Of a DNA stretch of 38,033 nt, positions 7,168-37,683 are shown in pieces (the first letter of the stretch is position 1; every line of letters starts with the position of its first letter). Both the position numbers and the translations under genes were made by a program. The notes below the pieces were generated by a model that ran no database searches, was not told the DNA's origin, and saw nothing but the letters and a program-made list of their open reading frames with translations. The DNA lies in the IMG/VR virus record IMGVR_UViG_3300048016_000090, positions 1 to 38,033 of that record. One strand, given 5' to 3'. This DNA is from a virus.

Positions 7168-7434
7168 CTAACTACCTACAAAACTTAAGTAATCCTCTTT
7201 AGTTCTATATCCTGTATATCGTTGTACTTCCTTACCATCAACTAAGATAATACTCGTTGGGACTGAGCGCACGTTGTACTCCTTGGCTAGCTCAATATAT
7301 GAATCAATATCATATGTAGTTACTTGAATACCTAAATCTTCTTCTTGTAGAAACTTCTTCAGTGACTTACAAGGTGAGCACCATGTTGCACTGAATACCT
7401 TTAGTTCTTTATTTCGCTCTATATCTCTTGACAT
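7168..7434 (-). CDS. Thioredoxin-like protein
   Basis: 88 residues with the redox motif WCSPC (Cys19, Cys22) and the cis-proline loop SVPT (Pro59), the core signatures of the thioredoxin fold. Shorter than host thioredoxin. It lies three genes downstream of ribonucleotide reductase on the same strand, so its likely job is to re-reduce that enzyme. Its ATG overlaps the end of the upstream gene by 16 bases, indicating translational coupling. Confidence 0.88.
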   Translation of the reverse strand: MSRDIERNKELKVFSATWCSPCKSLKKFLQEEDLGIQVTTYDIDSYIELAKEYNVRSVPTSIILVDGKEVQRYTGYRTKEDYLSFVGS

Positions 7435-7609: not shown

Positions 7610-8161
7610 TCATTCTCTTTTAAGTCCATGTGTGCTTGAATAGTTGTAACCAGCTTCATTTAACTCAGAAATCCTAGAGCTTCTAAATGATTCAGCCATT
7701 TCTTTAGCTTTTACCCCGTATTCAAATACACTGAACTTTTTAGAGTTTTGTTTGTCGTTCTCCATCCATGTTGCAATAAAATCATGTACTTCATATACCC
7801 CATTTGTGCCTGTTTTATTATTCTTACTTAGTTTCTTATTCCGACAATTCTCAGCGTAGGTAATTAATCTAAGATTATTTATTGAATTATCAGATGGGTT
7901 TCCATTTATGTGGTCAACAACCATTGTACTATCAAGACATAAGCGATGTAAGTAATAAATTATTCTATGCACTTGAATAGCTTTATTTTCATGTTCAACT
8001 TTCCAATACCCCAAATCAGTCAACCATCCAGCAGGTTTTCCTATTACTTTATTTGCACCAGAAATCTTCCAAGAAATACCAGAGGGACTTTTATCGTCTA
8101 TCTGAAATATATCAGACCACTTGTCTATTAAATGGTCTTTAGCTTTTCTTACTCTGCCCAC
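7610..8161 (-). CDS. HNH homing endonuclease (free-standing) overlapping nrdB
   Basis: 183 residues. Contains a GxPAGWLTDLGYWKV beta segment, the VHRIIYYLH strand-helix and the HNH core VDHINGNPSDNSINNLRL with AENCRNK, which are the usual parts of phage HNH endonucleases, plus a C-terminal AP2-like piece (GVYEVHDFIATWM..SVFEYGVKAKEMAE). Start taken as GTG at 8161, inside the last codons of nrdB (13-base overlap); no ATG gives a comparable N-terminus. Such genes spread by cutting conserved sites, often next to ribonucleotide reductase genes. Confidence 0.82.
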   Translation of the reverse strand: MGRVRKAKDHLIDKWSDIFQIDDKSPSGISWKISGANKVIGKPAGWLTDLGYWKVEHENKAIQVHRIIYYLHRLCLDSTMVVDHINGNPSDNSINNLRLITYAENCRNKKLSKNNKTGTNGVYEVHDFIATWMENDKQNSKKFSVFEYGVKAKEMAESFRSSRISELNEAGYNYSSTHGLKRE

Positions 8162-9117
8162 ACATCGCCCCAGCTACCAGTTAATGCACCTTTTGCGTAA
8201 TCTGTTACACGTTGTTCAAAAAAGTTAGAATGTGTTGCACCAAGTAATCCATCTACCCAAGGTAGGGGGTTTTGTTTTACTTTGTAGATACCTTTTAAAC
8301 CTAGTGCAATTAATCTACGGTCTGCAATATATCGAATATATTTTTTTACATCTTCTTTAGTTAAACCTTGCATTTCGTTTAAACCGAAGGCAAGGTCGAT
8401 AAACGCATCCTCAAGTACTACCATATGCTCCGCAATGGAGTAAAGTTCAGCTTTTAACTTATCATCCCATATTTGTTTATTTTCTTTAATAAACTCACGA
8501 AAAAGTCTTGTCATACTTTCAGTGTGTAGTGACTCATCAACTTGACTCCAAGCAATAATCTGACCCATTCCTTTCATTTTACCAAAACGTGTAAAATTCA
8601 AGAGCATCACAAACGAACTAAATAATTGCATTCCCTCTGTAAATGCACTAAAAACGGCGACTTGTTGTGCAATATTTTGCTTATCAGTTCCAATTGTAAA
8701 TGATTCAATATATTCGTGCTTATTTTTCATTTCCTCATACTGTAGAAACTCATTATAAGTTGTTTCCGGCATTCCAATTGTTTCAATTAAATGCGAATAT
8801 GCTGCAATATGGATAGCCTCTCTAGCTGCAAAACTACTCAACATCATACGAATCTCTGGAGCAGGAAATGTTGGTAAATAGTTTTTCACATAGGCTCCAG
8901 CTACATCAATATCACCTTGTGTGAAAAACCTAAAAATATGTGTTAAGAACTGCTTTTCAGATTCGGAGAGTTTATTTTTCCAGTCATTTAAATCCTCAAT
9001 CATTGGTACCTCTGTATGAAGCCAATGCATCTTTTCAGACATTAAGAATGCGTCATATGCCCAAGGATAGCTAAATGGTTTAAAGTAGTTTCGCTCGTCT
9101 GTTAATTTAAGTTTCAT
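8149..9117 (-). CDS. nrdB: Class I ribonucleotide reductase, beta (radical) subunit
   Basis: 322 residues. The helix AREAIHIAAYSHL has the E-x2-H-x3-Y spacing of metal ligands and radical tyrosine (Glu100, His103, Tyr107), and DESLHTESM provides the later Glu/His ligands. The acidic residues in TQGDIDVAGAY would supply the first carboxylate. It generates the tyrosyl radical used by the alpha subunit encoded just upstream (35-base gap). The C-terminus (GSWGDVWAE) is where the alpha-binding tail should be, and this is exactly where the HNH gene overlaps. Confidence 0.93.
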   Translation of the reverse strand: MKLKLTDERNYFKPFSYPWAYDAFLMSEKMHWLHTEVPMIEDLNDWKNKLSESEKQFLTHIFRFFTQGDIDVAGAYVKNYLPTFPAPEIRMMLSSFAAREAIHIAAYSHLIETIGMPETTYNEFLQYEEMKNKHEYIESFTIGTDKQNIAQQVAVFSAFTEGMQLFSSFVMLLNFTRFGKMKGMGQIIAWSQVDESLHTESMTRLFREFIKENKQIWDDKLKAELYSIAEHMVVLEDAFIDLAFGLNEMQGLTKEDVKKYIRYIADRRLIALGLKGIYKVKQNPLPWVDGLLGATHSNFFEQRVTDYAKGALTGSWGDVWAE

Positions 9118-9152: not shown

Positions 9153-10943
9153 TCACCCTTCACAAGCTAGACAAGTATTATTATCTACAATATCTTGCAT
9201 TATAATCTCATCTTCAATACGCTTGCGTTCTATTTTTTGACCTGTTTTATCTGACTTGCGAAGTTTAGCACTGCGTACATAATACAAGGATTTTAAACCC
9301 TGTTTCCATGCTTGAAAATGCACAGCATGTAAATATTTAATATTAACATCCGGAGCAAAGAATAGATTTGTACTCATAGCTTGATCTACAAACTTTTGTC
9401 GGTCTGCTGCTTGTTCAATAACCCATCTTTGGTCTACTTCTGGAGCTGTTTTATATACTTGTTTTGTATAGTCATCCATCCATGTTAAGTGCTGCACCGA
9501 ACCATCATTTGAAATAATACTAGACCAAACCTCATTATACCAATTTTCATCCTTATTCTTGGACTCTTTTAAAATTAAACTATCAAGAAACTTATTTTTA
9601 TTTAAAAATGCACCAGATGTTGTGTCTTGTCGGTAAGCATTAGCTGCATAAAGTTCAGTACTTGGGCTAGTGTTACCCATGATGATACTACTGGAAGCAT
9701 TGGGAGCTATAGCCATAACATGACTACATCGCTTTAAGACACCAAAATCAGCAGCATCAGGGCAAGCCCCACGTTTAATTGCTAATTCTTCGTTTGCAGT
9801 GTCTAAACACTTTCTTATGTGTTTAAAAATACTAATGTTCAACCCTTTAGCAATTGCAGATTCAAAAGGAACACCATACTTCTGTAGGTACGCATGATAA
9901 CCAAGAGCACCAACACCAACACTTCGCTCTCGGTAGGCACTAAACTTTGCACGAGATACCTCATCTGGAGCGTTTTCAATAAAATATGTTATCACGTTAT
10001 CAAGCATCTCTAAAACATCAGGTAGAAACTTTTCATCAGTTTTCCAGTCGTCGTAGTACTCTAAATTTACAGAACTTAGACAACACACAGCAGTTCGTTC
10101 AGCGGACGTTACTAGTGAAATTTCACAGCATAAATTTGACCCGTTGTTCTTTAGACCAATTTTCTTTTGGTATTCGGGTACACCTTCGTTAGCTCTATCA
10201 ATGAACCAAATATACGGCTCACCTGTTTGCATACGTAATTCAAGTAATTTCATCCATAATGCTTTTGCTGAAACAACTTCTGTAACTTTTTTGTTATGAG
10301 GTTGAATAAGTTCCCAACTGTCGTCAGTGCTTGGGTCAATCATGCATTTCTCAATAAGACTCATGAATTTATCAGTTATATTAACCCCGTGATTCAAGTT
10401 TAGGGCTTTCATATTCTGATCTCCTGTTGGTTTTCTCATTTCAAGAAACTGAATAATGTCAGGGTGATCTATACTTAAATATGCTGAATAACTACCACGG
10501 CGAGTACGACCTTGTTTATAAGCTAAAGAGCAAACATCGTAGGTTTTTAGATGTGGCATTACTCCTACCGATTTTTCATCAGCGCCTCTAATCCCAACAT
10601 GAACACCAACACCACCTCCCATCATTGATAGCCAGTTTGTCTCAGATAGATTTTGCACCAAGCCTTGAGATGTATCTTCTAAGTAGTTCAAGAAGCAACT
10701 GATAGGCATTCCTTGTTTATTTTTACCAAAGGATAATATAGGAGTAGAGTAAGATAACCATTGCTTGCTTGAGTACTCGTACAAGCGTTGAGCGTGTTCT
10801 TGGTCTGTTGCAAACGCTTTAGATACATATGCGAATCTTTCCTGCGGAGAGGTTTCATTATCCATCATATATGAGTCCTTTAGTCGAATCTTACCTAGTT
10901 CGTCAAAAAGAGAATCCCTGCTTTTATTTAGAGTTATTTCCAT
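9153..10943 (-). CDS. nrdA: Class I ribonucleotide reductase, alpha (catalytic) subunit
   Basis: 596 residues, shorter than the ~760 of host NrdA because there is no N-terminal ATP-cone. Catalytic features are present: Cys83 (PISCFLNY), the NxCxE motif NLCCE (270-274), the second redox Cys in AVCCLSSVNL, the radical-transfer Tyr pair in SLYYVRS, and the C-terminal shuttle pair CLACEG (591-596). Reduces ribonucleotides to deoxyribonucleotides for phage DNA synthesis. Lack of the ATP-cone suggests no dATP activity inhibition through that domain. Confidence 0.95.
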   Translation of the reverse strand: MEITLNKSRDSLFDELGKIRLKDSYMMDNETSPQERFAYVSKAFATDQEHAQRLYEYSSKQWLSYSTPILSFGKNKQGMPISCFLNYLEDTSQGLVQNLSETNWLSMMGGGVGVHVGIRGADEKSVGVMPHLKTYDVCSLAYKQGRTRRGSYSAYLSIDHPDIIQFLEMRKPTGDQNMKALNLNHGVNITDKFMSLIEKCMIDPSTDDSWELIQPHNKKVTEVVSAKALWMKLLELRMQTGEPYIWFIDRANEGVPEYQKKIGLKNNGSNLCCEISLVTSAERTAVCCLSSVNLEYYDDWKTDEKFLPDVLEMLDNVITYFIENAPDEVSRAKFSAYRERSVGVGALGYHAYLQKYGVPFESAIAKGLNISIFKHIRKCLDTANEELAIKRGACPDAADFGVLKRCSHVMAIAPNASSSIIMGNTSPSTELYAANAYRQDTTSGAFLNKNKFLDSLILKESKNKDENWYNEVWSSIISNDGSVQHLTWMDDYTKQVYKTAPEVDQRWVIEQAADRQKFVDQAMSTNLFFAPDVNIKYLHAVHFQAWKQGLKSLYYVRSAKLRKSDKTGQKIERKRIEDEIIMQDIVDNNTCLACEG

Positions 10944-10963: not shown

Positions 10964-11446
10964 TTATTTAATCCAAACTGATTCGTCAACTACTGTATGA
11001 ATATCTCGTTCATTTAAGTAGTCCTGTGTATCTTGTGTTTCACCGCGCTCTCGGTACAAGTCCTCTAGTATCTTACTACCCGAATACTTGTCGATTGCTT
11101 CTTTGCTTGCATACCCTGAGTTAATCCAATCCAAATCAATGCGCTCACTCCCTACCCAACGTGAGCAAGTTACAACTTGATTTACTTTATTCCTGTGCTG
11201 TAGAGCATCTTGACGTTTGTATTCTTGAGTTACATCCATACCAAATTTAAACAAAACATCCTTGAATCCCTCTGGGTGTTCTGTCTCATAACTAGATGTG
11301 TACTCAGGCATAATCATAGCAATCTCTGACTCCGATACAATACAACAAGCAACAATCATACTAGCTCGTTTTGTTTTATGTTGGTTAATCCTAGATAGTG
11401 TAATTGTTTCATCTTTATCATCTTTATCATCTTTATTATTTTGCAT
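10964..11446 (-). CDS. Hypothetical protein upstream of ribonucleotide reductase
   Basis: 160 residues, soluble, with a charged N-terminus made by a short DNA repeat (gat-gat-aaa, giving DDKDDKDD). Contains a Cys pair (VACCIVSE) and a mixed alpha/beta pattern; no family recognised. First gene after the promoter at 11476-11504 and 20 bases before nrdA, so probably co-transcribed with it. Confidence 0.6.
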   Translation of the reverse strand: MQNNKDDKDDKDETITLSRINQHKTKRASMIVACCIVSESEIAMIMPEYTSSYETEHPEGFKDVLFKFGMDVTQEYKRQDALQHRNKVNQVVTCSRWVGSERIDLDWINSGYASKEAIDKYSGSKILEDLYRERGETQDTQDYLNERDIHTVVDESVWIK

Positions 11447-11532: not shown

Positions 11533-11766
11533 TTACTTGAACATATCTGGAGTAATTTGCTGCCCTTTGTGGATATAAAAATCCTTTACGTTGTATGTAT
11601 TCTTTTGGTGAACTTCATGTGTCGACTGTACTTCTTCTGTCGGCTGCAAGAAGAACTCATCTTCAACAACATCATCCACCTTAGCATTGAATATCACATA
11701 AATAATAGATAGCAAGTAAACCAACATAACCCCTGAGCACAGAGCAAAAAACATCATTTCAATCAT
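11533..11766 (-). CDS. Small single-pass membrane protein
   Basis: 77 residues: hydrophobic N-terminal segment (ALCSGVMLVYLLSIIYVIF, about 8-26) and an acidic, polar C-terminus. Start codon shares a base with the upstream stop (TAATG), so translation is coupled to the pyrophosphatase gene. Function unknown. Confidence 0.6.
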   Translation of the reverse strand: MIEMMFFALCSGVMLVYLLSIIYVIFNAKVDDVVEDEFFLQPTEEVQSTHEVHQKNTYNVKDFYIHKGQQITPDMFK

Positions 11767-12344
11767 TACTTACCCTCCTTTTCAATCTTATCCTGAAGCA
11801 TAAACATTAGAGAAGCGATAGCACAAGCTAAGTGATAGCAGTTAGTACCTTTACTATCACCATCATCCAAATCAATATCCAAGCCTCGCTTATCAGCCCA
11901 TATATGGCGCTGTGCTGCTGCGAAGTATCGGTGCTGTAGGTCAGGTACTTTACGCCAGTTTTCTTCGTTGATTGGCTCGTTATATTTTTTCGCTCCGGCT
12001 GTGAGTACCTTAACAACCTCTTCCAGTGCATCAGCAGGAATTAGATTATACATTGGCTTACCGCTATCGTACTTCGTACCAGCTTTGGGTATCTTTGCAA
12101 GTAAAGCACCTACTTCATCTTCTTGTTTTGTAATATCTAACTTATTCATAATTTTAACTTCCTTCCATATGTGGTCACTAAAGCTGTTACAAAGTAAATA
12201 ACCCTCTTTATCTTCAATACATCCACCATCAATATCAAGCATAGCACATTGACTGCATTGCGTAAGTACTTTGCTAGACATTTCAGCCAAGGTATATTTC
12301 TTACCGTTAACGTACTCAGCAATTTCCTCTACACCTTTAATCAT
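11766..12344 (-). CDS. dATP/dGTP diphosphohydrolase-like protein (MazZ-related fold)
   Basis: 192 residues. The C-terminal part carries GTKYDSGKPMYNLIP, ALEEVVKVLTAGAKKY, NWRKV and AAQRHIWA..CYHLACAIASLMFML, the pattern of the dATP/dGTP diphosphohydrolase family (Pfam DUF5664 group), which hydrolyses dNTPs to monophosphates. The first ~65 residues form a separate Cys-containing segment (CSQCAM..CIED..LCNSF) not usual for the family. ATG at 12344 follows AAGGAGGTG and overlaps the previous stop (TGATG). In diaminopurine phages this enzyme pairs with PurZ, but no PurZ is visible here. Confidence 0.8.
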   Translation of the reverse strand: MIKGVEEIAEYVNGKKYTLAEMSSKVLTQCSQCAMLDIDGGCIEDKEGYLLCNSFSDHIWKEVKIMNKLDITKQEDEVGALLAKIPKAGTKYDSGKPMYNLIPADALEEVVKVLTAGAKKYNEPINEENWRKVPDLQHRYFAAAQRHIWADKRGLDIDLDDGDSKGTNCYHLACAIASLMFMLQDKIEKEGK

Positions 12345-12877
12345 CAATCACCTCCTTCTGGAATATACAAATAAGCAGGTACATGCTTTGTTAGGTCGTT
12401 ACTAACGAAACTAAATGGTTTCTTTACTTTGTTATTAATATCCTTAAAAGCATAAAATCCGTATTCAGCATTGAGTTCTGTTGTAATACCATCTTCACTG
12501 TACTTACCAATTGTACTGATAATTTCCTCTGAATCATCCTTTGCTACAAATTTAGTTAAGTTGTTATTTGCTGTATCTAGTAAAGCATCTTTAGTATTGA
12601 AGCCTAAGCTATCAAGCATCATACCTAGTCCAGCCCAAGTTACAGCAATATCCGTATAACCATCCAATAAACCAACGTAGTTCTTAGCATTTAAGTCTCG
12701 GATGGTTTCGTTTAGTTCTTCGCTGATAAGAGCTAGCTGTTGCTTTAGATCAAGGAGTGTAGCTTTATTATCCTTACCTGCTAGCTTATTGAATAAGTTA
12801 CAGGATTGAATAAATGACTCATACTTCGTAATCTGTACTTCTTCTTGAGGTAGTTGTGGTTGCTTCTGTTGTTGCAT
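12344..12877 (-). CDS. MazG-like nucleotide pyrophosphohydrolase
   Basis: 177 residues. The helices LISEELNETIRDL and LLDGYTDIAVTWAGLG provide the ExxE...(E/D)xxD metal-binding arrangement of the all-alpha NTP pyrophosphatase (MazG/HisE) superfamily, about residues 50-90. The C-terminal third (ELNAEYGFYAFKD) is extra. Likely removes specific NTPs/dNTPs or lowers alarmone signals; substrate unknown. Directly coupled to the dATP/dGTP diphosphohydrolase gene. Confidence 0.75.
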   Translation of the reverse strand: MQQQKQPQLPQEEVQITKYESFIQSCNLFNKLAGKDNKATLLDLKQQLALISEELNETIRDLNAKNYVGLLDGYTDIAVTWAGLGMMLDSLGFNTKDALLDTANNNLTKFVAKDDSEEIISTIGKYSEDGITTELNAEYGFYAFKDINNKVKKPFSFVSNDLTKHVPAYLYIPEGGD

Positions 12878-12901: not shown

Positions 12902-12936
12902 ACCAAAGAAAACCCCAGAAGGAATGACCTCTGGGG
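12902..12936 (-). terminator. Rho-independent terminator after the second endonuclease gene
   Basis: On the minus strand CCCCAGA (12936-12930) pairs with TCTGGGG (12919-12913), followed by TTTTCTTTGG. It separates the HNH/exonuclease transcription unit from the MazG-like gene. Confidence 0.75.
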
Positions 12937-12965: not shown

Positions 12966-13748
12966 CTATTGTACTTTACTTTTTATCTGTTTAATGCGTT
13001 CTGCTGCATTAAAGTTTAATAAATTAAATTCAACCTCTTGAGGTAACTTTAATCCCATTTTGATGTATGAATCCTTGATATACTTGTCTTTAGCTTTTGC
13101 ATATAAGTGTAAGCCTTCTTCCTCTGTAGAGACTTTACCTATATAATTTGGCTCATTAGTTATAGTTCTGGCAGTTCTTACTTGATATGTATTACGTCTT
13201 TTATCAAAATATACTTTACAACTTAGTTGTATTGCAATATTAAGTTCATAAGGAAGTACACAACAAGTCCTATCGGAATAAATATCTGATGAGCTACCAA
13301 GTAAGTCCTTATCTAGGCAAAGAATACTAGAACAACCATTAAGTGAAAGTATATTATCATTCCACCACTTATAGAAATTTTGATAATTAAACCAATCAGG
13401 GTGAACTTCTATATTATTTATTCTATAGCAGTGTACGGATTTTATACCCCTTTCAGATTGAGGTATTCCGTAGCATCTACTGAGCATCCCATGCCATTTT
13501 ACATATTCTTCAGTTTTTACACCTTTTATACTTATTGGTGCTCCTACTCCATGATAACCTCTACCACATGTTACCTTCCTAAATGGATTATATGTATCAC
13601 CTTTATGTATATTAGTTATTGTTGTTTTAATTACAAAGTCCGGTGCATCTTCATAAATAATATCAACATTACTATATTTGTTATAGCCTACAATAGTAAA
13701 TACCTCATTATATTTACTTATACATATATCTCCTATTTTTGGAGTCAT
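12966..13748 (-). CDS. Putative HNH-type homing endonuclease with AP2-like C-terminus
   Basis: 260 residues. The middle has WHGMLSRCY, a Cys/His-poor HPDWFNYQNFYKWW segment and LDKDLLGSSSDIYSDRTCCVLP, a pattern seen in a common phage family annotated as HNH or homing endonucleases; the C-terminal YIGKVSTEEEGLHLYAKAKDKYIK resembles an AP2-like DNA-binding repeat. It overlaps the exonuclease gene by 4 bases and has its own terminator, as expected of a mobile insert. More AT-rich than its neighbours. Catalytic residues are less clear than in the other HNH gene. Confidence 0.7.
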   Translation of the reverse strand: MTPKIGDICISKYNEVFTIVGYNKYSNVDIIYEDAPDFVIKTTITNIHKGDTYNPFRKVTCGRGYHGVGAPISIKGVKTEEYVKWHGMLSRCYGIPQSERGIKSVHCYRINNIEVHPDWFNYQNFYKWWNDNILSLNGCSSILCLDKDLLGSSSDIYSDRTCCVLPYELNIAIQLSCKVYFDKRRNTYQVRTARTITNEPNYIGKVSTEEEGLHLYAKAKDKYIKDSYIKMGLKLPQEVEFNLLNFNAAERIKQIKSKVQ

Positions 13749-17983: not shown

Positions 17984-18820
17984 TTAGATTACTTGAAGTA
18001 CCTTTAGCACTTTAATTAATCTTTCTTTATCAAGCATATCCAATAGCTCTGGGTAGTTATCAATAGCGAACTCCCTAAACCAACCAGAGCATAAAGTAGT
18101 GCATACTTTTTCAAGTGCTTTATTATATGCTAACCCAAGCATGAATTTACCTTTACTTGGAATAATAAATCTCTCTAAAGCAATCACCTGTACTTCTTCT
18201 GCTACGCATTGCAATTTCTGCTGATGTGTAAACCCCAACCATAAGTCCTCGTGGCACATAGCTCTGGAACTATCACGCTGCATTGCTTTATACATAGGAC
18301 TTGAATTGTACTGCACTAACTCATGCAAGTAATCATGGTTGAACCTTTTAGGTACAGCATCATCAAAGAACTCTTCTACAGTAACATCTAGTTTTGGGTA
18401 TCTCTGGGGGTACTCAATTTCCGTAAGTCTCCTGCGCTCTTGCATGAAGGGTTGATATAAAGATGATATGTTAGTACCTAATGGGTACTGAATTGAATGC
18501 TGTACTTTGGTGTACTTATGCAAGTACTTATGATAATGCGTAATGTGCTTACCAAAGCCCTCAGAACGGTGCAGGTGGCTTCGTTTGATAGCTGCCAGTA
18601 CCCACAGTGGAGGAACATATAACACCTCGCCATTTAGCTTTGTTGTGTGCTCTGCTGTAATGTACTGCTCAATACTTGAGTTATTCAGGATAGATGGTTT
18701 GTGCCATTCAGTACCTTCAATTGGTTCTGCACTAATTACATCCCAATCGCTATCAGGACGTGCTATACCTAAGTCCATCCAGTAATCCAATGCACGAGAA
18801 CCAATTAGAATATTTTTCAA
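17984..18820 (-). CDS. Nucleotidyltransferase-fold phage protein
   Basis: 278 residues. The N-terminus ILIGSRALDYW...DSDWDVIS has the two hallmark elements of the pol-beta-type nucleotidyltransferase fold: the G-S helix start (Gly7-Ser8) and Dx(D) carboxylates (Asp25, Asp27). The rest contains His-rich helices (KRSHLHRSEGFGKHITHYHKY) and YPKLDVTVEEFFDD, DYLHELVQY and CHEDLW blocks found in a wide phage family (DUF7275-like) of unknown substrate. TTG start, preceded by AAAGGAT. It directly follows the tRNA-like and structured RNA elements on the same strand, so an RNA substrate is possible but unproven. Confidence 0.7.
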   Translation of the reverse strand: MKNILIGSRALDYWMDLGIARPDSDWDVISAEPIEGTEWHKPSILNNSSIEQYITAEHTTKLNGEVLYVPPLWVLAAIKRSHLHRSEGFGKHITHYHKYLHKYTKVQHSIQYPLGTNISSLYQPFMQERRRLTEIEYPQRYPKLDVTVEEFFDDAVPKRFNHDYLHELVQYNSSPMYKAMQRDSSRAMCHEDLWLGFTHQQKLQCVAEEVQVIALERFIIPSKGKFMLGLAYNKALEKVCTTLCSGWFREFAIDNYPELLDMLDKERLIKVLKVLQVI

Positions 18821-27358: not shown

Positions 27359-27886
27359 CTATTTCCTTAATCTATCTGCCTGAGTTTTACCTTCGTGATA
27401 GCCTAAAATCCAAGCGTAAGCGCAGTCACTTGTACTTAGATATGGGTTTTCAATATCCTTACCTGACTGAAATGCTTGATAACCCTTTCCGACACCTTGC
27501 TCATAAGCTGTTGTAATTGACAGGATACTAAAATCATTATACTTTTGTACTGACTGTGTAGCCTGCATATGAGCATCAATCCGATTCGCAATACGCGACA
27601 CTAGTAATGTGTTGTTTGAACTACACCCACAATCGGAAAGTATCTTTTCGGCTAGTTTAACAGTAGCACAACTTGGGTCTGCATTGTGTAGCTGCTCTAC
27701 TTCAAGCCTCCCACATTCACGCCCATTTTCAAAGTCTGCCCAATCTGGTCGGAATCCTAGTGCTTCCTCCAGTGCTTTGCGGAGGGTATTGCCAGCTTCA
27801 ACCGCCTCACTTACGTCCCATTCGTAGGTGCGAGCATCACGGATTTTGTAGGCCAGCGCCATCAGGCTATCTACTGTGTGTGTCAT
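27359..27886 (-). CDS. Hypothetical phage/prophage protein
   Basis: 175 residues. The opening THTVDSLMALAYKIRDA..EAGNTLRKALEEAL is a pattern common at the start of modular phage proteins of unknown function in Beta- and Gammaproteobacteria. The rest is helical with QGVGKGYQAFQSGKD and ILGYHEGKTQADR. Codon choice is more GC-rich than the replication genes. Overlaps the upstream stop by 4 bases. Confidence 0.65.
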   Translation of the reverse strand: MTHTVDSLMALAYKIRDARTYEWDVSEAVEAGNTLRKALEEALGFRPDWADFENGRECGRLEVEQLHNADPSCATVKLAEKILSDCGCSSNNTLLVSRIANRIDAHMQATQSVQKYNDFSILSITTAYEQGVGKGYQAFQSGKDIENPYLSTSDCAYAWILGYHEGKTQADRLRK

Positions 27887-29912: not shown

Positions 29913-30260
29913 ATGAAACCAAGAAAGAAGTACGAGCTTATTGCTACAACATTCCGCAAGAATGGTACTGTTATAGCTACAGGTAGAAATGAGTACAACA
30001 AGACGCACCCACTCAGCAAGCACTTCGCTCTGCAATCAGGTGAGTCCGAGCATAAGGATAAAATACATGCTGAGTTAAATGCTGTACTTAAGTCCAATAA
30101 GAATCGTATCTTCTCTATCTTGGTTCAAAGGTTCAATAAGGATGGAAGCACAGCCAATGCTAAACCTTGTTTATCCTGTCAGCACATGCTTAGAGCTTTT
30201 GGCGTTAGAATCGTGAACTACACAACAGAAAAAGGAATTGAACAATATGAAAACATCTAA
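29913..30260 (+). CDS. Cytidine/deoxycytidylate deaminase-like protein
   Basis: 115 residues. Zinc-binding motifs of the deaminase fold are visible: KIHAELNAV (His52, Glu54) and KPCLSCQHML (Cys86, Cys89). The order strand-H[A]E-PCxxC is standard. Probably deaminates (d)C-type nucleotides to feed dUMP to the ThyX-like enzyme encoded 1.2 kb downstream, but RNA or other substrates are not excluded. Shorter than typical dCMP deaminases. Confidence 0.8.
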   Translation: MKPRKKYELIATTFRKNGTVIATGRNEYNKTHPLSKHFALQSGESEHKDKIHAELNAVLKSNKNRIFSILVQRFNKDGSTANAKPCLSCQHMLRAFGVRIVNYTTEKGIEQYENI

Positions 30261-31471: not shown

Positions 31472-32410
31472 ATGACAATCAATGCTAAAATCATTGCTGA
31501 TTCAATTAATGCAGATACTAAAAAGCGCATTACAACATATGAGCTTGAGTACCCCAGAATTATTCATGCTGAGTTACTTACGCATCGAATTTTCTCTAGA
31601 AACTCCGCTAGCTCTAGGGCTATCCCTATTGAGACAATGCTAGGCGCAATCAAGAATGATACAGCAGGTCCGTCACACTGGGGTAAGAATCAAGCTGGTA
31701 TGCAGGCTGATGTGGAGTTAAGTGGCCCTCAGTTACATAACGTACAGAAGTACTGGCATAGAGCTTGTGCTGACGCTTTGCATTGGAGTTCTGCTATGCA
31801 CAAAGAAGGTGCTCATAAGCAAGTTGCTAACCGCTTGACAGAACCCTTTCAGCACATGAAGGTTGTGCTTACATCTACTGAGTTCAATAACTTCTGGTGG
31901 TTACGTGACCACAAAGATGCTGACCCAACTATTGCTGAGTTAGCTAAGAAAATGCTGATTGAGTTTGACAATTCCAAACCAAGAGAATTACAAGCTGGTG
32001 AGTGGCATTTACCTTATATTAGTACTTATCGTAAGATTAATAATGCACTGGGTTACTACATAAATAATCCCTCAAATAATGAGCTAATGGAAATAACAGA
32101 AGAAGAAGCTATTATTATTTCAGTTAGTTGTTGCGCTCAGGTTAGTTATCGCAGGAGCGATACATCCCTAGACAAAGCTAAAATGATTTATAATCGCTTA
32201 ATTGAGAGTGAGCCATGTCACGCATCGCCCTTGGAGCACGTAGCCAAGTGCTTGAATACTGGTTTGATTGACGTATATGAGGACTATACTCCGCTTGTAT
32301 GGGAAGATGGTATTACACATATGGATAGGGAAAGTAATATGTGGAGTAATAACTTACAGGGTTGGATTCAGTACAGGGCACTAGTACCTAATAACTACAA
32401 GCAAGGATAA
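31472..32410 (+). CDS. thyX: FAD-dependent thymidylate synthase, ThyX-like
   Basis: 312 residues. LLTHRIFSRNSASSRAIP (36-53) is the ThyX flavin/dUMP motif in a divergent THR-x2-SRN-x2-SSR form; later AHKQVANRLTEPFQHMKVVLTSTEFNNFWWLR and HASPLEHVA correspond to the conserved substrate-binding blocks of the family. Converts dUMP to dTMP using FAD and methylenetetrahydrofolate. Fits with the deaminase and ribonucleotide reductase as a dTTP supply route. GAAAGGAA upstream. Confidence 0.82.
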   Translation: MTINAKIIADSINADTKKRITTYELEYPRIIHAELLTHRIFSRNSASSRAIPIETMLGAIKNDTAGPSHWGKNQAGMQADVELSGPQLHNVQKYWHRACADALHWSSAMHKEGAHKQVANRLTEPFQHMKVVLTSTEFNNFWWLRDHKDADPTIAELAKKMLIEFDNSKPRELQAGEWHLPYISTYRKINNALGYYINNPSNNELMEITEEEAIIISVSCCAQVSYRRSDTSLDKAKMIYNRLIESEPCHASPLEHVAKCLNTGLIDVYEDYTPLVWEDGITHMDRESNMWSNNLQGWIQYRALVPNNYKQG

Positions 32411-35685: not shown

Positions 35686-36312
35686 ATGAAAACATCACTT
35701 AACAAGATTCGCTTGAACTCACCTTGCAAAGAAGGTTGGACTAAGTTGTTAAAGCATTTAGGTAAGGTTCAAGCAGATGACGTTGAACTCTCACTCCTAA
35801 CAATCCTAGAAAGCAATGGTCTTGATGATGCTTTGTGGTGCTTGCGAGCCGTAGATGGCTTTGACAAGGAGAAGCGTCTGATGGCTGTTGCTTTCGCTCG
35901 TGAAGTGCAACACCTCATGAAAGACCTAAGAAGTATTGCTGCACTGGATATGGCTGAGAGGTTTGCTAATGGTGAGGCTACACAACAAGAGTTGAATGAT
36001 GCTCGTGCTGCTGCTTATGTTGCTGCTGATGCTCGTGCTGCTGCTTATGTTGCTGCTGATGCTGCTGCTGATGCTGCTCGTGCTGCTGCTTATGTTGCTG
36101 CTGATGCTCGTGCTGCTGCTTATGTTGCTGCTGATGCTGCTGCTGATGCTGCTGCTGCTGCCGATGCTGCTTCTGCTGCTGCCGATGCTACTTCTGCTGC
36201 TGCTTATGCTGCTTATGCTGCTACTTATGCTACTTATGATGATGCTTATGATGATGCTTATGATGATATGAGAAATAAACAAGTAAAAATACTAAAGAAA
36301 TTTATAAAATGA
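35686..36312 (+). CDS. Ala-rich repeat phage protein, copy 1
   Basis: 208 residues. Residues 1-100 are a globular domain (SPCKEGWTKLLKHLGK, LLTILESNGLDDALWCLRAV, FAREVQHLMKD, RSIAALDMAERFANGEAT) found in many phage proteins; residues 105-190 are Ala-rich repeats (ARAAAYVAAD, AAADAA) made from GCT-GCT-GAT runs, forming a probable long helix, then Asp/Tyr repeats and a basic end. Function unknown. A paralogue starts at 37684. Confidence 0.75.
   Translation: MKTSLNKIRLNSPCKEGWTKLLKHLGKVQADDVELSLLTILESNGLDDALWCLRAVDGFDKEKRLMAVAFAREVQHLMKDLRSIAALDMAERFANGEATQQELNDARAAAYVAADARAAAYVAADAAADAARAAAYVAADARAAAYVAADAAADAAAAADAASAAADATSAAAYAAYAATYATYDDAYDDAYDDMRNKQVKILKKFIK
36001..36270 (+). repeat. GCT/GAT codon repeats in the Ala-rich gene
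   Basis: A 30-base unit (encoding ARAAAYVAAD) is present in two exact tandem copies at 36001-36060 and again further on, followed by shorter GCTGCTGAT and GATGATGCTTAT runs. Prone to slippage and length change. Long open frames on the other strand and frame here are by-products of the triplet repeat. Confidence 0.85.
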
Positions 36313-37661: not shown

Positions 37662-37683
37662 CAACACAACAGAAAGCCCAAAC

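Follow-up and report, generated by a model that had tools for sequence, protein, structure and literature searches.

The virus record IMGVR_UViG_3300048016_000090 of the IMG/VR collection (positions 1-38,033; this whole stretch of 38,033 nucleotides is referred to as the window) encodes a MazG-like nucleotide pyrophosphohydrolase and a DUF5664 protein of the dATP/dGTP diphosphohydrolase type in two overlapping genes. From homology and gene company we infer, at a probability of roughly 55%, the activity, the substrates and the direction of flux of this pair: it would consist of coupled deoxynucleoside triphosphate (dNTP) pyrophosphohydrolases that balance the supply of phage DNA precursors. The record is probably a fragment, since three named relatives span 76-107 kb.

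In the proposed pathway, ribonucleotide reductase (RNR) and thioredoxin would make deoxynucleotides, and the pair would cut selected dNTPs to the deoxynucleoside monophosphate and pyrophosphate during phage DNA synthesis. By homology, the DUF5664 protein would trim dATP, dUTP and dGTP, and its MazG-like partner would most likely act on dUTP and/or dCTP/dGTP. A dCMP deaminase-like protein could convert dCMP to dUMP, which the thymidylate synthase ThyX would turn into dTMP. The phage could then remove dUTP without a classical dUTPase, and pools could shift towards thymidylate and away from surplus purines. This pathway is proposed because of the gene company (ThyX, deaminase and RNR) and because the DUF5664 enzyme of Arthrobacter phage Wayne has been assayed: it cuts dATP, dUTP and dGTP to monophosphates, with a kcat of 0.48 per s for dATP and apparent values of 0.22 per s for dUTP and 0.053 per s for dGTP (PMC12884076). 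Among the roles offered by the original prediction, which was made from the DNA letters, tuning of dNTPs is the best supported, by this assayed homologue and by the location of the genes beside RNR.

A coupled gene pair

On the minus strand between positions 11533 and 12877, three genes encoding the MazG-like protein, the DUF5664 protein and a protein of 77 residues are joined by one-base stop-start overlaps (Table 1). The TGA stop codon of the MazG-like gene and the ATG of the DUF5664 gene share one base (TGATG), and a GGAGG sequence lies six bases 5' of this ATG at 12344; GGAGG or AGGAG is present within 20 bases of ~2% of random places in the window. For these two reasons, ATG 12344 is better placed as the DUF5664 start than TTG at 12347, and the GGAGG sequence makes translational coupling of the two genes well founded by sequence. 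The positions, identities and coupling of both genes, as well as the Cys-rich N-terminal segment of the DUF5664 protein, had been predicted correctly, as confirmed by profile matches, TGATG and GGAGG; the DUF5664 start is corrected here from TTG 12347.

For the 77-residue protein, family searches (Pfam, PHROGs) gave no match above chance; small open reading frames (ORFs) also occupy the place of its gene in Curvibacter phage P26059A and Limnohabitans phage DC31. The stem-loop on the other side of the pair has six G-C pairs among its nine and a T-rich tail, and the window holds two terminator-like sites compared to 0.9 (standard deviation 1.0) in shuffled sequences, which is weak support for it.

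Conservation of the pair

Recurrence of the pair is beyond chance, and it is a conserved phage unit. A DUF5664 gene adjoins the MazG-like gene in 33 of 38 MazG loci from environmental viral contigs, and in 24 of 29 after removing loci with identical last 100 MazG residues. The gap between the two genes ranges from -17 to +11 bases in all 24 loci measured, figures that depend on the start codons picked by the analyst. The recurring pairs keep the gene order and are about 30-53% identical to the window proteins. As for the five loci without a DUF5664 neighbour (L008, L011, L025, L039 and L040), L008 stops at the contig edge, a DUF3310 protein is encoded in L025, the matches L039 and L040 are distant ones, and L011 carries the four-cysteine (Cys4) module on a different domain in the DUF5664 place. 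The pair is also found in P26059A, in DC31 (same order) and, in a more distant version, in Pseudomonas phage SYP. Each component is from a known family; a search of the open-access literature did not find the coupled pair with its exchangeable Cys4 module next to an often-replaced reductase.

Association with nucleotide supply

Downstream of the pair and on the same strand lie phrog_3506, NrdA, NrdB and a thioredoxin-like gene. Matches to RNR were obtained by tblastn in 31 of the 36 loci L003-L038, and L005 has a class II-like RNR; of the remaining loci, L007, L008 and L019 break off too soon, and tblastn gave no RNR match for L025. The phrog_3506 neighbour is present in 33 of these 36 loci, and its PHROGs label, thymidylate synthase, may have been carried over from neighbours. 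In SYP the order is MazG, DUF5664, small ORF, ThyX, phrog_3506, small ORF, NrdB, NrdA, with a ThyX 41% identical to that of the window. Barba19A has MazG, glutaredoxin, small ORF, ThyX, small ORF and RNR in this order, and in ctYwJ313 the genes for DUF5664, a PF03819 MazG protein and RNR follow one another within 4 kb, with ThyX also present.

Gene content was compared in 21 records, namely the window, P26059A, DC31, 17 of the 38 MazG contigs and L058 from a separate DUF5664 scan; the comparison excluded the distant matches L039 and L040 and any contig shorter than 42 kb. ThyX was detected at E<=0.001 in 16 of them, including all 11 of at least 64 kb, nine of these having both genes of the pair (DUF5664 is missing from L011 and L025). 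A dCMP deaminase is present in 17 of the 21 records, and ThyA and Dut in none. ThyX accompanies 11/11 large MazG-bearing records compared to 5/9 polymerase relatives (Fisher p 0.026, uncorrected for relatedness). This count has limits: P26059A (84008 bases) and G001 (84110 bases), with identical ThyX scores, look like almost one and the same phage; the pair-bearing SYP, whose ThyX was detected by BLAST only, is placed among the nine controls; the Vibrio record is a partial genome; and two of the 11, L011 and L025, have no DUF5664, the ThyX match in G011, the record of L025, moreover falling short of the Pfam cut-off.

The base composition of these phages is consistent with a different use of the pair, namely hydrolysis of dGTP and dCTP from G+C-rich host DNA for the benefit of an A+T-rich phage genome, as proposed for cyanophage MazG. 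DC31 has a G+C content of 37.58% compared to 59.25% in its host, and encodes a dCMP deaminase that the host lacks (PMC12195039, the accessible text of which does not mention the MazG-DUF5664 pair); the window has 38.6%. The contrast between DC31 and its host resembles that for the MazG of cyanophage S-PM2, which prefers dGTP and dCTP (PMC6850273). Such recycling is a possible but rather unlikely alternative, and it overlaps via dCTP, dCMP and dUMP with dNTP balancing, for which the base composition and the deaminase of DC31 count as well.

A lesser chance is given to the proposal that the DUF5664 enzyme acts as a brake on RNR, replacing the ATP-cone feedback that is missing from the adjacent reductase. 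An ATP-cone match is absent from five of six large subunits of pair-bearing phages (the window, DC31, P26059A, SYP and the class II-like enzyme of L005), and the assayed DUF5664 enzyme prefers dATP (PMC12884076). However, the sixth phage, L018, combines the pair with an ATP-cone NrdA, in L011 a cone-less NrdA occurs with no DUF5664 protein, and the DUF5664 protein of the window deviates at residue 155 (Leu155, see below). Cone-less reductases may moreover be common in phages.

The reductase slot itself is variable: among close relatives with identical last 100 MazG residues, L010 and L014 carry the window type and L012 and L013 the DC31 type. In the window lineage, phrog_3506 stays beside the reductase, whichever type is present. 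The ATP-cone NrdA of L018 has intein and LAGLIDADG matches, and the NrdA of P26059A (L001:13094-15799), recorded as RNR alpha subunit only, has a LAGLIDADG match and an intein-splicing match below cut-off.

Predicted domains of the two proteins

The MazG-like protein matches phrog_671, "nucleotide pyrophosphohydrolase" (E 5.9e-15), as do its homologues in P26059A (E 8.8e-17) and SYP (E 3.8e-19). No Pfam MazG model matched it directly; among 28 family members at E<=0.1, PF01503 (PRA-PH) matched nine, PF03819 (MazG) five and PF12643 (MazG-like) four. EExxE, which we take to be the metal-binding motif of the MazG/all-alpha NTP-PPase superfamily, is complete at residues 53-57, and across the 28 rows of the family alignment (A3) E53 is retained in 27, E54 in 28 and E57 in 28. 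The second motif, presumably ExxD in this superfamily, reads G69-x-x-D72-G73-x-x-D76 in the window protein. In the register of the alignment to DR2231 of Deinococcus radiodurans, 26 of the 28 rows have DGxxD for ExxD, one has DAxxD, and ExxD is seen in L025 alone; when residues 69-72 set the register, E69xxD72 is found in 23 of 28 rows, with Gly69 in the window. Since a helix would place D72 and D76 on one face, the site may be remodelled instead of lost.

The AlphaFold2 model of this protein (pLDDT 90.6) includes a C-terminal beta-hairpin extension with K150 and K153. Its top structural neighbours are DR2231 and a MazG-related protein of T. maritima (both Z 8.9), and E. coli MazG reaches Z 8.3. 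At the sequence level, the match to the PRA-PH chain 1yvw (E 0.0027) is better than that to DR2231 (E 0.016). A search for a MazG-like relative in a genome collection returned 36 stretches that fit one degenerate pattern, none of them confirmed, which does not prove absence.

The DUF5664 protein matches PF18909 (dGTP_diPhyd_N; E 5.4e-25, 87.7 bits, cut-off 27) and phrog_801, "dATP / dGTP pyrophosphohydrolase" (E 2.1e-26). The PF18909 domain spans about residues 87-188 and follows the N-terminal Cys4 segment; the residues G89, K91, D93, Y121, N129, W130, R139, R146, H147, D158 and H171 are retained. Its predicted model (pLDDT 70.5, pTM 0.48) gave a best structural Z of 4.6 and no Foldseek match under E 0.001, and the family profile compared to solved structures stayed at chance level (best E 0.55). 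A search for DUF5664 in plasmids gave no match. Common ancestry of the MazG-like and DUF5664 proteins was considered and rejected (hhalign probability 0.2 for A3 versus the DUF5664 alignment, A4). Both alignments consist of picked rows (28 and 25, respectively), with near-duplicates and also some distinct rows omitted.

The N-terminal cysteines lie at positions 30, 33, 42 and 52, numbered from ATG 12344. At least four N-terminal cysteines are present in 17 of 25 aligned DUF5664 proteins; in the other eight, the segment is absent (L006, L020, L024, L083 and L101) or the N-terminus is a different one (L043, L044 and L045). As judged from these sequences, the Cys4 segment is therefore an exchangeable accessory and not part of the catalytic domain. 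Matches of the module to PHROGs are weak, the best being phrog_36708 of unknown function (E 2.5e-6, one of ten modules), and tblastn in phages retrieved DC31 and one chance-level record. A zinc- or redox-dependent role in docking or folding is a guess. In an extended proposal, to which we give little credence, the pair would form a fixed module of nucleotide supply that is kept while unrelated reductases swap; it would remove dUTP and brake dATP, and the exchangeable Cys4 module would dock the hydrolase to thioredoxin- or reductase-type partners or sense redox.

In L011 (L011:6488-6913), the Cys4 module (matching the module profile at E 3.4e-10) is fused to a different domain in the same slot behind MazG. 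This domain matches phrog_17558 (E 5.4e-18), its PHROG families are of unknown function, and no solved structural relative was found for the protein.

Counter-evidence

Several observations weigh against a role of the pair in balancing dNTPs and concern the proteins as well as their genomic context. The Gly-Glu that follows the RH helix of DUF5664, a conserved feature recognised in this analysis rather than a published definition, is G154-L155 in the window protein. Residue 155 is Glu in 64 of 67 distinct DUF5664 sequences, as read by eye from aligned rows, the others being Gln, Gln and the Leu of the window; in A4, Glu is found in 23 of 25 rows. With Leu155 in place of a near-invariant Glu, activity of the window protein therefore cannot be assumed. 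Contig L003 also has Leu155, which is weak support against a sequencing error because its proteins are 100% identical to those of the window and it may be the same phage. In the MazG-like protein, strict ExxD is found in neither register (G69xxD72, G73xxD76), and the protein is therefore described as MazG-like rather than as canonical MazG. Its structural match is weak evidence, considering that the unrelated helical protein ClpC reaches Z 8.1 against the model and that Foldseek gave no match under E 0.001.

DUF5664 clearly also occurs without a MazG partner: in a DUF5664 scan, of which the best 80 of 156 confirmed matches were kept, a three-sequence profile detected a MazG partner in 27 of 78 new loci, several of these 27 lying on contigs already counted and some partnerless loci being cut short. 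The window genes for ThyX and the deaminase lie on the opposite strand, 17-19 kb from the pair, and, among the 11 large records, the PF00383 deaminase is missing from three, namely P26059A, G001 (a near-copy of P26059A) and G011. Among the nine polymerase relatives, a MazG profile match is present in six and ThyX by Pfam in four, one of them below cut-off; Dut is absent from all nine, seven of which are without DUF5664. Absence of Dut thus does not single out pair-bearing phages, and replacement of Dut by the pair, abandoned as a discriminating claim, is now a compatible feature only.

Z-DNA, base modification and counter-defence

DUF5664 and DUF550 act in Z-genome phages and are fused in one protein of Acinetobacter phage SH-Ab 15497, which raises the idea that the pair clears away a standard dNTP to let a modified one enter DNA. 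The original prediction held that the DUF5664-type enzyme removes dATP in such phages. Hydrolysis of dATP, along with dGTP, indeed holds for the DUF5664-DUF550 fusion of SH-Ab 15497 (PMC12884076), but not for MazZ of S-2L, which is (d)GTP-specific, DatZ being the dATP triphosphohydrolase there (PMC8342488). As originally noted, neither PurZ nor a family A polymerase is visible: searches for PurZ were negative in the window, which is probably a fragment, and in 20 relatives (0/21 records), and a search of the window alone for PF00476 found no family A polymerase. The window polymerase is family-B-like, with a match to phrog_1252 and weak matches to family-B models. DatZ-type YfbR (PF12917) was absent from the window and 12 relatives (0/13 records) and matched only the positive control SH-Ab 15497 (1/14). 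With these negative searches for PurZ, family A polymerase and DatZ, the link to Z-DNA was rejected as unsupported. The searches give no support to another base modification, without excluding it: no modification gene was recognised among the 31 of 63 listed window ORFs that were family-searched, many of which are without a family. DUF5664-like proteins also occur in Arthrobacter phages with canonical DNA (PMC12884076). Z-DNA or base modification is the least probable of the explanations considered.

Scarcely more credible is the proposal that the pair counters defence by removing (p)ppGpp or abortive-infection nucleotide signals. In E. coli, a link between MazG and reduced (p)ppGpp has been described (cited in PMC6850273), but cyanophage MazG neither bound nor hydrolysed (p)ppGpp (PMC6850273), and the pair is embedded in a nucleotide-supply block. 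PADLOC, the library of which covers defence and not counter-defence, matched none of six proteins.

The published DUF5664 enzyme assays found in the open-access literature searched come from Z-genome phages. Here, DUF5664 is found repeatedly in a two-gene unit, paired with a MazG-like protein and located beside RNR and, in SYP, ThyX, with no Z machinery detected, which warns against reading DUF5664 as a marker of Z-DNA. An everyday role of the pair in thymidylate supply and pool balance becomes testable in cultured phages.

Other features of the window

The features of the locus and its nucleotide-supply genes are collected in Table 1. The HNH endonuclease gene beside the pair has a counterpart in P26059A (47% identity), but none was matched in the DC31 stretch. 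A long ORF at the beginning of the record (1-900) contains repeat copies spaced by 96 bases. An array with spacings of 9, 12 and 15 bases (35952-36290) lies inside ORF 35686-36312, the first 300 bases of which recur at 37681 with 78% identity. An ORF of 175 residues (27359-27886) has a C-terminus like that of ribosome modulation factor (26.5 bits compared to the Pfam cut-off of 27.9), and a DUF7275 protein of unknown function (17984-18820; E 5.5e-53) is encoded in the replication block.

Table 1. Position, strand and supporting evidence of features in the window.
Feature	Position	Strand	Basis
Thioredoxin-like protein	7168..7434	-	PF00085 E 1.9e-13
HNH endonuclease gene between NrdB and thioredoxin	7610-8161		PF13392 E 9.7e-13
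RNR small subunit	8149..9117	-	NF007186 E 1.9e-133; PF00268 E 4.1e-74
RNR large subunit, no ATP-cone match	9153..10943	-	NF006577 E 2.1e-213; Pfam
Conserved neighbour, 160 residues, phrog_3506	10964..11446	-	E 4.4e-14
77-residue protein, hydrophobic N-terminus, one-base overlap with DUF5664 stop	11533..11766	-	sequence
DUF5664 / dATP-dGTP diphosphohydrolase-type protein, 192 residues from ATG	11766..12344	-	PF18909, phrog_801, alignments
MazG-like nucleotide pyrophosphohydrolase, 177 residues	12344..12877	-	phrog_671, 28-row alignment, AlphaFold2 model
GGAGG, ribosome-binding-like, in 3' end of MazG-like gene	12351..12355	-	sequence
Terminator-like stem-loop between HNH endonuclease gene (12966-13748) and MazG-like gene	12913..12936	-	9 pairs
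HNH endonuclease gene beside the pair	12966-13748		phrog_953 E 8e-29
dCMP deaminase-like protein	29913..30260	+	PF00383 E 1.2e-6, above cut-off; phrog_174 E 1e-9
ThyX-type thymidylate synthase, divergent 312-residue type	31472..32410	+	phrog_85 E 3e-96; PF02511 E 1.2e-7, above cut-off

Comparison with known systems

The MazG of cyanophage S-PM2, a phage with 37.7% G+C, is likewise a phage MazG-type pyrophosphohydrolase, likened here by description only; a DUF5664 partner is not mentioned in the accessible text (PMC6850273). A structural counterpart of the MazG-like protein is DR2231, which aligns with the model over 120 residues (Z 8.9, root-mean-square deviation 3.0); for entries solved with dUMP or dUMPNPP, 118-120 residues align at Z 8.7-8.9, the C-terminal extension among them. 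The weak HMMER match between the two covers the second catalytic helix, and the C-terminal stretch is also aligned. However, identity is 14%, and DR2231 has HExxD where the window has DGxxD. A MazG-like enzyme of D. radiodurans is named as capable of cleaving dUTP among other dNTPs (PMC5122711).

For the DUF5664 protein, the enzyme of phage Wayne (DUF5664-1; L120:37626-38222) has the same domain (PF18909, E 3.5e-32), is 34% identical over 115 aligned positions and also bears an N-terminal extension before the domain. In contrast to the window protein, its extension is of a different kind and it retains Glu at the position of Leu155. The loci differ as well: in Wayne, PurZ0 (annotated as PurA-like) lies directly upstream and a dUTPase-type gene two genes downstream, the annotation lists no MazG gene there, and the next gene is without a Pfam match.

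The MazZ of phage SH-Ab 15497 (L119:32865-34022) combines DUF5664 with a PF04447 pyrophosphohydrolase domain. It differs from the window pair in being a single polypeptide with DUF5664 first, encoded beside PurZ and DatZ genes, and hhalign detected no resemblance between its DUF550 part and the MazG family of the window (probability 0.3, with a single sequence on one side). In layout, the window pair is the split counterpart of this fusion.

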